This document shows, one piece after another, positions 10,290-23,226 of a stretch of DNA of 26,461 nucleotides. The notes under the pieces were generated by a model. That model ran no database searches and was not told where the DNA came from. It saw only the letters and a list, made by a program, of their open reading frames with translations. Within the stretch, counting starts at the first letter, position 1. Each line of letters begins with the position of its first letter. The stretch is from positions 1 to 26,461 of the IMG/VR virus record IMGVR_UViG_3300010354_000536. One strand, written 5' to 3'. Source of the DNA: a virus. The position numbers and the translations under genes were made by a program.

Positions 10290-10747
10290 CGGTCAATAAG
10301 ACTGACTACTACAACTGGCAGAAAGCAACACCGTTGGACAAGCAACGGTTCAAGTCTGCGTCACCGAACTTGGTGGCGTTGAACGATTACTTGGTCAAGC
10401 GTTTCGGTGGCACCAACTTGGGTATCTACAATCGGCGTGAGGTGCGCTCCGGTGGTGCGCCCTCATCGCACTCGTTTGGTGCAGCGCTGGATTACAGGTA
10501 CGACTCACGCAATGAGGCGACGAAGCACATCCTGCCGTGGCTGGTGAAGAACTCTAAGGAGTTGGGAATCCAAATCATTCAGGATTATGTGGGCTGTGCC
10601 ATCTGGTCGCCACACAAGGGATGGCGTATTGTTGGCAAGGACGGAGAGTTTGGTCAGCCGTGGGCGACATGGTTCCACATTGAAACCACAAAGACCGATT
10701 GGAAGAACGGTACCCGCATTGAATCTAGGGGGATTGTACTACCGTAG
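10286..10747 (+). CDS. M15-type (D-Ala-D-Ala carboxypeptidase-like) peptidase, endolysin candidate, 153 aa
   Basis: ATGA overlap with the giant virion gene, preceded by GAGGAGGGGAA, an excellent ribosome-binding site. The motif SHSFGAALDYR (about residues 61-71) supplies His62 and Asp69, and FHIE (about 130-133) supplies His131. This is the H...D...H zinc-ligand pattern of M15/VanY-like and related peptidoglycan peptidases. There is no signal peptide and no separate wall-binding domain. It would cleave peptide bonds in the host wall, either as endolysin or as a virion-associated enzyme; being last in the structural operon fits both. Its last 23 bases overlap tail-to-tail with the leftward gene ending at 10725. 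Confidence 0.82.
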   Translation: MTVNKTDYYNWQKATPLDKQRFKSASPNLVALNDYLVKRFGGTNLGIYNRREVRSGGAPSSHSFGAALDYRYDSRNEATKHILPWLVKNSKELGIQIIQDYVGCAIWSPHKGWRIVGKDGEFGQPWATWFHIETTKTDWKNGTRIESRGIVLP

Positions 10748-11330
10748 TGAACGGCGACCCTGTGTATGGGTCAAACTTCCCTGCTATTGAGAGCGCTTTT
10801 GTGACAATACGTTTTCCAGTAGCGATGTCAACTGACCGATTTCCAAGTAGAGCGTTGAGTGCTCCGAGTGCGTATGGTGCACCGGTTCCCACGGCGTAGA
10901 TTCCGTTGCTGTCTGAGGTCCATCCGTAGTCAGATTCGATGACATAAATGATGCCGTGTATCGCAACAACGATTGTTGAATTCTGTTGCGCAAGGTGTTC
11001 TTTCTCTTCGTTGTCGGGCATCGCATACCCTTGAGTCTCAAAACACTCCCGCAGTGCGGGCACAAACTTGTTCGTGATAAACGCATCTAGTCTTTTTCCT
11101 TTTGCTGTCGCTGGTGGTGTTGGTGGTGTGAACGCATGATGGAGAATGTTGATGGCTCGCACGTCGCCGGCTGCGCCTAAGACGTACTTGCCATTCGTGC
11201 CAAGTTTGGATGAGCCTGCACCTAGCGTTGTGATTTGGTACGCCATACCAGAGGAGTCAAACGAGGAGATGCGTGAGTCGGTTCCCAGCAGGGCGTATCC
11301 GTCTCCTTGGATTGCAACGATGGTTGTCAT
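10725..11330 (-). CDS. HslV/proteasome beta-like Ntn-hydrolase, 201 aa
   Basis: The protein begins MTTIVAIQGDGYALLGTDSR, matching the start of HslV (MTTIV...). Removal of Met would expose Thr as the N-terminal nucleophile. Counting that Thr as 1, Asp falls at 17 and Arg at 19, as in proteasomal subunits. The SKLG Lys lies at 41, consistent with Lys33 displaced by a loop insertion of about eight residues. Later segments GTGAPYALGALNALLGN and KALSIAGKFDPYTG match the conserved C-terminal half of HslV. No propeptide is visible and no unfoldase gene is in this window. It is the last gene of the leftward operon, coupled by ATGA to its upstream neighbour. Self-assembling peptidase activity is inferred. 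Confidence 0.85.
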   Translation of the reverse strand: MTTIVAIQGDGYALLGTDSRISSFDSSGMAYQITTLGAGSSKLGTNGKYVLGAAGDVRAINILHHAFTPPTPPATAKGKRLDAFITNKFVPALRECFETQGYAMPDNEEKEHLAQQNSTIVVAIHGIIYVIESDYGWTSDSNGIYAVGTGAPYALGALNALLGNRSVDIATGKRIVTKALSIAGKFDPYTGSPFTTVVQSP

Positions 11331-11756: not shown

Positions 11757-11938
11757 TGCGAATCTTCTTCTCCCATTTGACGCTCAATCTCACGGGAGAC
11801 AAGGACGATTTCTTCAACGGCTGCGGGACCGAACTTGCTTTCAAGATAGTGGATGATTGCGAACACATTTGCGACCAACCATTGAAAGTTGATAACGCCT
11901 TCTTCTTGAGGCTCTGTTGATTCTGGTGTGTCAGACAT
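11753..11938 (-). CDS. Small hypothetical protein, 61 aa
   Basis: ATG at 11938 overlaps the end of the sigma-like/DUF1599 gene by 8 bases. The first 14 residues are acidic and disordered-looking (SDTPESTEPQEE). The rest forms one or two helices (FQWLVANVFAIIHYLESKFG; IVLVSREIERQMG). The short hydrophobic run is amphipathic rather than clearly transmembrane. No family is recognised. It shares an operon and tight overlaps with its neighbours. Confidence 0.65.
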   Translation of the reverse strand: MSDTPESTEPQEEGVINFQWLVANVFAIIHYLESKFGPAAVEEIVLVSREIERQMGEEDSQ

Positions 11939-12731
11939 AGGTATCTCCTAGTTGTAGTTGAAATGACCCCTCGTTGAACATTAAGGCTATAACACAGTAG
12001 CCAACAATGTCTTTGAGTGTGTCAACGATTGATTCGTTTTTTGCTTCGGTGCCTCGTGCCAGCAGATTTGCGTAGCGTTCTACTTTGTCGGACATGCGAA
12101 CGACGATGCCGAACATTCCGAAGGCGTTGATGTTGCCGTGACCGTAGTCGTGTTGCTTGGAGCACAGCAGGGTTGTCATCTGTCCCGAGTCCCATTCATC
12201 AAGTCTGCGTAGTTCACGAACGGTTGCTTCCGCAACCATTATGAACAAGCGCTGTGATGGTTCGTCGTCGTTCACAACGCAGTCTCTCATCATGTCTCGC
12301 CAGTTAGCCAGAGACCCAGCCAAGTTTGTTGAGACGAGTTTGTCACCCTTGAACGAGGTTGCCCATTGTCCTGCTGCTTGTTCCCATGTGTCTGCCATTT
12401 GTACTCGCTTTCGTATGTCTGGGTCGGCTTGCATTTTCGCTTTGAGTTTATCAAACGCTTGGTTTCTTAAGCGCCACACATGCGTTTTGGTGATGCCAAG
12501 TTGGTCAGCAATTTGCTGAAGGCTGAGACGCTCTGTCATGCAGGCGTTAATAATCCACAGGTCTCGTGGTTCTAGTTCGTCAACATACTGGGCGACCACA
12601 TCACGGAGAGCGTTTAGGTCATCGTTGACTTCTCGTGGTTCTTCAAGCGGTGTTGATTCCATCAGCGCTTGATACTCGTTGAATGGCAGTCGTGCATCAA
12701 CGGTGTTCCACAGACCGTTGATGTCACTCAT
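11931..12731 (-). CDS. Sigma-region-4-like HTH fused to a DUF1599 (Nmad1)-like domain, 266 aa
   Basis: Residues about 55-100 read as a sigma-factor region 4 type helix-turn-helix (RDLWIINACMTERLSLQQIA, then DQLGITKTHVWRLRNQAFDK). Residues about 185-252 carry the pattern KQHDYGHGN...FGMFGIVVRMSDKVERY...NESIVDTLKDIVGY, characteristic of DUF1599 / nucleotide-modification-associated domain 1 proteins, often related to MazG-type NTP pyrophosphohydrolases. The fusion suggests a nucleotide-linked enzyme that also binds DNA or RNA polymerase, but no regulator role is proven. It lies between a nuclease-like gene and small unknown genes and overlaps both neighbours by 8 bases. Confidence 0.78.
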   Translation of the reverse strand: MSDINGLWNTVDARLPFNEYQALMESTPLEEPREVNDDLNALRDVVAQYVDELEPRDLWIINACMTERLSLQQIADQLGITKTHVWRLRNQAFDKLKAKMQADPDIRKRVQMADTWEQAAGQWATSFKGDKLVSTNLAGSLANWRDMMRDCVVNDDEPSQRLFIMVAEATVRELRRLDEWDSGQMTTLLCSKQHDYGHGNINAFGMFGIVVRMSDKVERYANLLARGTEAKNESIVDTLKDIVGYCVIALMFNEGSFQLQLGDTYV

Positions 12732-19023: not shown

Positions 19024-19935
19024 TCAGACGGCACGGCTGTATCCAAACTCTAGGTCATCTTCGTCGTCCCACTTGGGCAGATAACAACCATGCGTGGAAG
19101 ACCACACATAGTCTTGTGGTTCGTATGAACGCATCTCGTCAGGAAAACAATCACAGTCACCGGACAAAGCGCTCATCTCGCAGTAGTAACAAGTGAAACA
19201 CTTAGGACACGAAAGCGTATCGTCAATGTTGTACTCGTCTACCTGCTCAACATGACCGCAAAAGTTGCATGACCATTCCTCGTGGAAATGGTATGTCTGC
19301 TCAGGTTCTGTCTTGCTGACAGTCTTGGTTGACGGTTGCCAACCAGACGCATACATGCCGTAACCCACATTTGAGTATGTGCGTGTCCACTTGTATGAAC
19401 TGTTAGACCACCACACACCATTGACCCAATGACCTAGGTTCTCGTTGATGATGTAGTACGGGTTCTTGTTGTTCTTGTTGGCTGTCAAGATGACCAACTT
19501 GGAACCCTCAGCAAACTTGGAAATCTTCTTCCGCATTTTCTTAGAGTCCAAGATGGGTGTGCCACCGCTTGCAGGCAGAATGTCTTCGGCAAAGACACGA
19601 GTGTCAGAGCGACCATTCTGTTCTTCTAACGGCAACATACCGTTGTGAGCAAGCACAGAGTGCTTGTCACGACCAATCTGGAACGGGTGACAGTTAGCCT
19701 TGTTCGTGCCACCATGCGTAGTGATACGAGAGTGGAACAAAGCAGGACCGCTATGCTTGTTGCGTTGCTTCATGAACTCATCAAGCACCTGCTCAAACAC
19801 CATGCCGTGACCACGAAGAACCGTAGACCCAGCATGTATAGCCCAACCGAAACCGTCGGGATTGTTGTCGGCACCGACACGCAAATCTGTATCGCTTGCG
19901 GTGGTTCCTTCTTGCATGAATGTAAGTAGACACAT
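19024..19935 (-). CDS. Class II glutamine amidotransferase with C-terminal zinc cluster, 303 aa
   Basis: ATG 19935 is chosen over 19941: it puts Cys at position 2 (MCLLTF), the required N-terminal nucleophile of class II amidotransferases, and gives GAAAGGGG ideal spacing. Conserved motifs follow: NPDGFGWAI (about 25-33), FHSRITTHG (about 67-75), NCHPF (about 81-85), LAHNG (about 95-99) and SDTRVF (about 110-115). A C-terminal Cys-rich part (about 222-263: CNFCG, CPKC, CYYC, CDC) looks like zinc knuckles. It releases ammonia from glutamine, presumably for the amidoligase encoded just upstream, whose stop precedes this start by 2 bases. Confidence 0.92.
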   Translation of the reverse strand: MCLLTFMQEGTTASDTDLRVGADNNPDGFGWAIHAGSTVLRGHGMVFEQVLDEFMKQRNKHSGPALFHSRITTHGGTNKANCHPFQIGRDKHSVLAHNGMLPLEEQNGRSDTRVFAEDILPASGGTPILDSKKMRKKISKFAEGSKLVILTANKNNKNPYYIINENLGHWVNGVWWSNSSYKWTRTYSNVGYGMYASGWQPSTKTVSKTEPEQTYHFHEEWSCNFCGHVEQVDEYNIDDTLSCPKCFTCYYCEMSALSGDCDCFPDEMRSYEPQDYVWSSTHGCYLPKWDDEDDLEFGYSRAV

Positions 19936-19937
19936 TG

Positions 19938-21137
19938 TCATACCCCTTTCTCTGTTGCGTATTCGCTGAATGTTGTGTAGCCCTCGTCAGTAGCGAACTG
20001 ACGGAACTTGTCCCAACTGTAGGACTGTTTGATGTTGCCCTTGTACACCATGTTGCGTGCAAAGCGACACGCTGCATCGACGGCTTCGATGCGAGCGTTG
20101 AGCGACCTTGCGTTGAGCGTACCCTTAAAGAACCGCAACTCAATAGTTGAGTGGTTCTGCAAGTTGAGCGCAACATAGCGGTCAAAGTTGGCAGACTGAC
20201 CGATACGACCATGAGTGGTGATGTACCTGATGTAGTCCATCATGTTCTCACGCTCTTGGTCAGACCAGCGTGCGTAGGTTGACTCGCTACGACCAGCAAT
20301 CTTGCGCCATTGCTCATTGTTCGCATGGAACAACGCCATGAAGCGATACATGCTGGTGATGTTCTTCTGGAAATACTTGCGACCCACATGAATGTGAAGA
20401 CCGCAAGTGTTCGTGTTGGAAGAACGCATGCCCATGTTTGCCAACTCACGAAGACGAGTTGTATCAACACGCTCACGCCAGTAATCAAGCGTAAATGGGT
20501 GAGTCACAATCTCGTAACCGTTGTTGAGTGAACCGTCGCTCTTGAGATACGCAAGACTGCCAAAGATTTCTTGGGCAAGACGAGCGCCATCGTAACGGTC
20601 ACAATGAACAGCCTCTGTCTCTAACTCTATACCAAGCGTCGGCTTGTCAACCGAACTAGGCATGGCGTTAGCGTTAGACAAGATGACTTTCTTGCCGTGA
20701 CGAGTGGACACAAAGTGGAACTCTGCACGAGGCTTGTAACAATAACCCTTGATGAGACCTTCGTCTTCATCTTCTTCTGGGTCATCTTCGCACCGGTAAC
20801 AACCGTTGCTGTCGGAGTAGTGATAGTCGTGCCGTGAGCAATAACTCACACGCCTATCCCAACAACTCTCGCACCAATAATCATCGCTGTCATCTAGCCA
20901 ACGACAATCCTCGGTGAAGAACTGTTCCTCACAGTAACAACAAATAGTTGTGTACTCTGCAACACAGTCGTCACAGATGGTGCTGCTTTGTATCTCAAAC
21001 GATGGTTGATACTCATGTTCGTCTGACTCGTCCGTGTCATTGACAAGGAACTCGTTACAACATGAGTCACACGACCATGTTTCTGGTGGTTCTGCTTCGT
21101 TGTTGATTTCTTCTGGTGTTTCGTTTATGTCAGTCAT
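19938..21137 (-). CDS. Amidoligase (COOH-NH2 ligase) with N-terminal zinc cluster, 399 aa
   Basis: Residues about 20-117 are unusually Cys-rich and acidic (CDSCC, CDDC, CCYC, CESC, CYRC), forming several probable zinc knuckles. From about 165 on, the amidoligase (PF12224-like, glutamine-synthetase fold) motifs appear: GIELETE (169-175), SDGSL (200-204), GYEIVTHP (207-214), CGLHIHVG (245-252) and STIELRFFKGTL (330-341). These supply ATP/Mg ligands and catalytic residues. The enzyme would join an amine to a carboxylate with ATP use. It has its own AAAGGAAA ribosome site and a palindromic operator 39 bases upstream, and is paired with the amidotransferase gene. Confidence 0.9.
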   Translation of the reverse strand: MTDINETPEEINNEAEPPETWSCDSCCNEFLVNDTDESDEHEYQPSFEIQSSTICDDCVAEYTTICCYCEEQFFTEDCRWLDDSDDYWCESCWDRRVSYCSRHDYHYSDSNGCYRCEDDPEEDEDEGLIKGYCYKPRAEFHFVSTRHGKKVILSNANAMPSSVDKPTLGIELETEAVHCDRYDGARLAQEIFGSLAYLKSDGSLNNGYEIVTHPFTLDYWRERVDTTRLRELANMGMRSSNTNTCGLHIHVGRKYFQKNITSMYRFMALFHANNEQWRKIAGRSESTYARWSDQERENMMDYIRYITTHGRIGQSANFDRYVALNLQNHSTIELRFFKGTLNARSLNARIEAVDAACRFARNMVYKGNIKQSYSWDKFRQFATDEGYTTFSEYATEKGV

Positions 21138-21176
21138 GACATTTCCTTTCTGTTGTTTGTTGTGTTTGTGTTTCTG

Positions 21177-21192
21177 TTATACATCTGTATAA
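21177..21192 (-). promoter_or_regulatory. Palindromic operator/promoter site 2 (TTATAC-N4-GTATAA)
   Basis: TTATACATCTGTATAA lies 39 bases upstream of the amidoligase start, the closest spacing of the four sites. The leader between it and AAAGGAAA is A/C-rich on the coding strand. Site arms are identical to sites 1 and 4, while the 4-base centre differs, as expected for a dimeric protein's operator. Confidence 0.78.
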
Positions 21193-22443: not shown

Positions 22444-22502
22444 GGCTAGCCGTTGTGATTAGCCACCACTACCCACCGCTATACAACTGTATAACGGTGA
22501 GC
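22444..22502 (-). repeat. 59-bp repeat copy A carrying palindromic site 3
   Basis: This block matches 23168-23226 at 48 of 59 positions by manual alignment with no gaps. It contains palindrome site 3, CTATACAACTGTATAA (22479-22494), with one base changed in the left arm, followed on the minus strand by a conserved GGTGGG leader and a CACAAC stretch. Because conservation extends beyond the palindrome into the transcribed leader, it looks like a duplicated promoter-operator-leader cassette rather than a lone binding site. Confidence 0.8.
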
Positions 22503-23167: not shown

Positions 23168-23226
23168 GGATAGTCATTGTGACTAACCACAACCGCCCAC
23201 CGTTATACAACCGTATAACGATGAGC
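23168..23226 (-). repeat. 59-bp repeat copy B carrying palindromic site 4
   Basis: This is the second copy of the promoter-operator-leader cassette, aligned to 22444-22502 with an offset of 724 bases. It carries the perfect palindrome TTATACAACCGTATAA (23203-23218). On the minus strand it reads palindrome, then a GGTGGGCGGTTGTGG leader, then the ribosome site of the 23131 gene. It starts 13 bases beyond the stop of the gene ending at 23239. Confidence 0.8.

Follow-up and report, generated by a model that had tools for sequence, protein, structure and literature searches.

A tandem amidoligase and class II glutamine amidotransferase with cysteine arrays, obligately paired in viral loci, as a candidate split amidating enzyme

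What might be made by two adjacent viral genes that encode an amidoligase and a glutamine amidotransferase (GAT), each with an extra set of cysteines, and do their products act as a single enzyme? The two genes lie on the minus strand of a 26,461-base linear virus record, the whole of which is the stretch analyzed here (the window). The features of the pair are as follows.

19938..21137, minus strand: amidoligase (glutamine-synthetase-fold carboxylate-amine ligase), 399 aa; PF12224, phrog_16683, phrog_2443, structure model and Foldseek
20790..21071, minus strand: ligase N-terminal Cys-knuckle (predicted zinc) array, residues ~23 to 116; 5 CxxC and 15 Cys, residue conservation, weak zinc-finger profile similarity
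19941..20645, minus strand: ligase catalytic domain, glutamine synthetase (GS)-like, residues ~165 to 399; invariant residues in 59 sequences
19024..19935, minus strand: class II GAT, 303 aa, Cys2 nucleophile; PF13230, phrog_25883, structure model and Foldseek
19147..19269, minus strand: GAT C-terminal 8-Cys (predicted zinc) module, residues ~223 to 263; conserved Cys in alignment A4

The GAT reading frame has two in-frame ATG codons, at 19941 and 19935. The ATG at 19935, which lies 2 nt beyond the ligase stop codon, has the superior Shine-Dalgarno spacing, yields a protein with Cys at position 2 and is the sole start in most homologues. A megablast search with 16 kb of the window found no matching record in the INPHARED phage set. 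At the protein level, distant phage homologues of the ligase were found in 24 records and of the GAT in 21, mostly Marvin-type mycobacteriophages.

The upstream gene encodes a PF12224 amidoligase in which the acidic, His and Arg residues of the active site are conserved and the predicted fold is GS-like. It scored 38.6 bits against PF12224 (Amidoligase_2; cut-off, 22), matched phrog_16683 at 2.5e-32 and the amidoligase family phrog_2443 at 9.8e-12, and carries the motifs GIELETE and CGLHIHVG. We aligned 59 ligases (alignment A3), the other members of which are 24 to 42% identical to the window protein, and found G169, E171, E173, K199, D201, S203, E209, H248, H250, R283, E333 and R335 to be invariant. 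Foldseek matched the AlphaFold model (mean pLDDT, 89) to YbdK, the top hit, and to GS, GmaS, Dop and PafA; the first four of these matches had a probability of 1.00, with low global TM-scores (0.25 to 0.36). A phmmer search against the PDB gave no direct sequence match, and a profile search returned zinc-finger matches only.

The downstream gene product scored 27.6 bits against PF13230 (cut-off, 23), so that both genes were above the cut-off in the profile searches, and matched phrog_25883 at 1.8e-37. It contains the motifs MCLLTF, NPDGFG and HNG, and across 60 sequences (A4) the residues C2, N25, G28, G30, H68, R70, T73, G75, H83, P84, H97, N98, G99 and D111 were invariant. The glutaminase set C2, R70, T73, H97-N98-G99 and D111 is thus kept, and the protein is predicted to be a class II glutamine amidotransferase with a catalytic Cys exposed upon removal of Met, an Arg, an Asn-Gly oxyanion hole and an Asp. 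The AlphaFold model (mean pLDDT, 85) matched the GlmS glutaminase, PurF and EgtC in Foldseek, and the sequence scores favored GlmS/PurF-type glutaminases over EgtC. These profiles, motifs and folds bear out the identities that an earlier note on this DNA had assigned to the two genes, and the catalytic Cys2, Glu and His, rather than being lost, are invariant in ~60 diverse homologues. Given the intact active sites and the fold matches, both proteins are predicted to be working enzymes.

In viral loci with enough sequence, the pairing of the two genes is obligate. Every locus found in a search with the GAT alone carries a ligase directly upstream, and in wider viral scans the ligase lay beside the GAT in 77 of the 77 GAT-found loci with enough upstream sequence, while the GAT lay beside the ligase in all 78 ligase-found loci with enough downstream sequence. 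Five exceptions each begin or end at a contig edge. The ligase always comes first, and the median intergenic gap is 5 nt. IMG/VR holds at least 258 relatives of the GAT and at least 438 of the ligase, counts that come from single scans and may overlap. Around the pair, in a nonredundant set of 63 loci, a WhiB-like gene was near 31 and a DnaB-like helicase gene near 27, and the pair is frequently close to replication genes. No other neighbor is as constant as the partner, so the pair looks self-sufficient. One viral locus (L028) has a second, partial ligase match upstream. No true ligase-GAT fusion protein was found, and a single 749-aa open reading frame (ORF) at locus L254 was rejected as proof of fusion or docking since comparison with L234 suggests a frameshift at the junction in this metagenome-assembled genome. 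PADLOC matched no known defense family.

The genome scan was run with profile A1, A3 being too diverse. With the ligase profile, at least 127 places were detected in cellular genomes, mainly in Clostridia but also in Coriobacteriia, a Phycisphaerales contig and a Bdellovibrio contig, and a GAT-like gene accompanies the ligase at 67 of 80 cellular loci, in nearly every case immediately downstream. One scan of cellular genomes with the GAT profile found no relatives, and a plasmid search with a clostridial GAT returned mostly GlmS. We ran Pfam on the flanking ORFs of a sample of these cellular loci, mostly from gut Clostridia, and the serine recombinases, phage integrases, RecT and YqaJ that it recovered make the sampled pairs look mobile-element-borne. 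The genome of Butyricicoccus pullicaecorum has six amidoligase loci (L198, L203, L204, L205, L208 and L210), which likewise suggests spread on mobile elements. Three clostridial loci (L216, L220 and L221) have two tandem Cys-array amidoligases followed by a single GAT.

The earlier note had also described extra Cys clusters on both proteins, and these proved to be real and conserved in relatives. The segment ahead of the catalytic core of the ligase contains 15 Cys and 5 CxxC motifs, with C66 invariant and C69, C89 and C92 at least 90% conserved in A3. At the C terminus of the GAT lie 9 Cys, arranged in 4 overlapping CxxC motifs; in A4, C223, C226, C243, C246, C249, C252 and C263 are invariant and C261 is at least 90% conserved. 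The two arrays differ in distribution. That of the ligase is present in 57 of 57 nonredundant, mainly viral ligases with a locatable core and in all 67 cellular pairs, whereas the GAT module is present in 61 of 63 GATs of the phage set (the exceptions are L020 and L021) and in just 1 of the 67 cellular pairs, being absent from the other 66 with the ligase array intact. From these counts, the ligase array is a general feature and the GAT array a clade-specific one. The proposal that the two proteins dock through matching zinc clusters is therefore unsupported, since pairs stay together where the GAT cluster is missing. Both arrays are predicted to bind metal, and that of the ligase shows weak profile similarity to LIM, ZZ and HVO_2753-type zinc fingers. 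Modules of the LIM, ZZ and related types have proteins or nucleic acid as their usual ligands.

A palindrome lies upstream of the pair, at the first of four sites in the window.

21177..21192, no strand: palindrome TTATACNNNNGTATAA / TTATACATCTGTATAA, upstream of the pair; motif count, conserved in sibling contig L002
19000..19015, no strand: second copy, upstream of the next minus-strand gene; motif count
22479..22494, no strand: third copy, with 1 mismatch; motif count
23203..23218, no strand: fourth copy; motif count

With up to 2 mismatches allowed, TTATACNNNNGTATAA occurs 4 times in the window against 0.29 expected, and three of the sites are also present in the sibling contig L002. The palindrome that had been ascribed to the pair as its own operator is real, but it is not private: the four CGTTATACNNNNGTATAACG-like palindromes each stand upstream of a minus-strand gene start, and the pair is probably one unit of a small phage regulon.

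The host is probably an actinobacterium, as judged from an Rpf-like transglycosylase in the window that resembles those of Mycobacterium and Rhodococcus phages, from WhiB genes in 21 of 35 related records (the window record has none) and from an HslV-like gene 49% identical to a protease gene of the Actinomycetia phage DSL-LC01. This last gene (10725-11330, minus strand; PF00227, phrog_1040) encodes an HslV/proteasome-like NTN peptidase that keeps its N-terminal Thr. A further minus-strand gene, at 11931-12731, joins a sigma-70 region 4-like helix-turn-helix to DUF1599 (nucleotide modification-associated domain 1), an unusual combination.

How might the pair work? Lacking a synthase domain, the GAT should need a separate acceptor enzyme, and no candidate but the ligase is constantly present. 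We infer that the pair is a split glutamine-dependent amidating enzyme that turns a carboxylate into a primary amide with ammonia and finds a macromolecular target through its Cys array, a reading to which we assign a probability of about 0.48. Cys2 of the GAT would hydrolyze glutamine to release ammonia, the GS-fold ligase would use ATP to convert a carboxylate to an acyl phosphate, and attack by the ammonia would give the amide. The Cys-knuckle array of the ligase would probably pick the macromolecular substrate, which might be a host protein, wall peptides or their carrier, and the amide would possibly alter the host during infection, either by changing the wall or a receptor against competitors or by controlling a host protein. 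Actinobacteria amidate wall peptides, which makes a wall target plausible; a protein substrate would suit the zinc array no less well. An ATP-driven reaction with ammonia from glutamine had been predicted earlier, and the enzyme classes, the intact catalytic residues and the obligate pairing make it plausible.

The match of the GAT model to EgtC speaks against coupling through ammonia. EgtC is a gamma-glutamyl hydrolase and supplies no ammonia, and GS-fold ligases often use amines besides ammonia (YbdK, PafA and GmaS). Because of this second fold match, the main rival is a cycle of gamma-glutamyl addition and removal in metabolite protection or salvage, in which the ligase, like YbdK, EgtA or PuuA, would join glutamate to an amine and the resulting amide would later be hydrolyzed by an EgtC-like action of the GAT-fold partner. 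The top fold match of the ligase, YbdK, is a carboxylate-amine ligase, the NCBIfam YbdK model matches the ligase weakly, and GlmS and EgtC both recognize the gamma-glutamyl group. We nevertheless regard this cycle as doubtful: the GAT sequence scores point to the GlmS/PurF type and not to EgtC, the Cys array would suit a macromolecular partner better than a small molecule, and metabolite pathway genes are not conserved near the pair.

The fold matches of the ligase to Dop and PafA raise another alternative, in which proteins of the host or phage would receive an amino acid or a peptide from the ligase, in the manner of Pup attachment by PafA, the GAT would prepare the tag and the HslV-like peptidase would act downstream. 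The N-terminal Thr of that peptidase and the capacity of Cys knuckles to bind proteins are consistent with such tagging, and a link of the peptidase to protein turnover is possible. However, the peptidase occurs in 15 of the 51 searched records with an amidoligase-GAT pair, so we rejected it as an obligate partner, and clustering of ORFs of 50 codons or more revealed no conserved small peptide gene beside the pair in most loci. We consider tagging quite improbable. Cys knuckles could also bind nucleic acid, and with the sigma region 4-DUF1599 gene and the frequent proximity of the pair to replication genes they would fit amidation of a carboxylated base in phage DNA or RNA. That reading is very improbable, as the window proteins scanned include no base-modification genes beyond DUF1599.

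Which known system is the pair closest to? A phage amidoligase-GAT link has been predicted since 2009 (Iyer et al., as cited in PMC10580990), and such pairs are known from OM43 phages and from Marvin (PMC10580990). The closest named relative of the window pair is gp105-gp106 of Marvin (Marvinvirus), with the same two genes in the same order and Cys arrays on both; identity is 35% over 87% for the GAT and ~30% over 56% for the ligase. The Marvin pair sits at the end of a 65-kb genome in which the surrounding gene order differs from that of the window. Marvin gp105 (JF704100.1, L019:2773-4134) and its relatives are labeled "glutamine amidotransferase domain protein," as is gp106, but gp105 is the amidoligase partner. 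The OM43 phages MEP401 and MEP402 carry a like tandem of amidoligase and GAT, but the MEP402 GAT has no C-terminal Cys module and the host group differs; the paper describing these phages treats the two genes as auxiliary metabolic genes (PMC10580990). In the clostridial and coriobacterial pairs on mobile-element-like DNA (L194-L271), a class II GAT comes immediately after a Cys-array ligase, but this GAT lacks the Cys module and is of another subfamily. The reaction proposed here would, by analogy, follow the same logic as the wall amidation enzymes MurT-GatD and AsnB/LtsA, which combine glutamine-derived ammonia with an ATP-using ligase to give a primary amide (PMC3267633). The folds of those enzymes are of the Mur-ligase or asparagine-synthetase type, and GatD is a class I GAT, whereas the window GAT is class II.

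RIO-1-like podoviruses, including phiEco32 and LUZ24, have a seven-gene cassette for which changes to peptidoglycan and a block to superinfection have been predicted (PMC5498523). The link of amidoligase-GAT pairs to wall modification that the earlier note had mentioned is real as a prediction (PMC5498523, PMC10580990), and the OM43 phage paper likewise cites wall modification and superinfection exclusion as prediction only (PMC10580990). The window pair could be a remnant of such a cassette, making unusual wall-peptide linkages that block superinfection. In the cassettes of phiEco32, LUZ24, RIO-1 and PSA-HP1 an amidoligase precedes an adjoining class II GAT, and their catalytic motifs are related to those of the window pair at the profile level, the phiEco32 and LUZ24 proteins being distant relatives of the window pair. 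The podovirus cassette has in addition a COOH-NH2 ligase, a RimK-like ATP-grasp protein and a gamma-glutamyl cyclotransferase (GGACT), and its GAT is longer. Among 16 records, the COOH-NH2 ligase PF14395 was found in none, with LUZ24 and phiEco32 detected as positive controls, and GGACT was absent from the window record and from 15 of the 16. A Pfam scan of part of the ORFs of the window, itself a fragment, turned up no RimK-like ATP-grasp ligase. The LUZ24 ligase, unlike that of the window, has no Cys array, and the wall role is itself a prediction. We consider descent as a cassette remnant improbable, and the window pair is most fittingly classed as a two-gene form, with zinc arrays, of the predicted phage system, the enzyme types and pairing of which were already known in phages.

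We found no measured function for the pair, the zinc-finger-bearing two-gene version of which is widespread: it is common and, in phage loci with enough sequence, never split. A broader idea, which we think unlikely, is that phages and gut mobile elements share a mobile-element-encoded, zinc-array-guided amidation of a specific host macromolecule that would disable a host function or defense. If the amidation reading is true, in phage lineages with the HslV-like peptidase the reaction could tie to protein turnover. Marvin is a phage of M. smegmatis with the stand-alone two-gene form, which makes the question of function testable.
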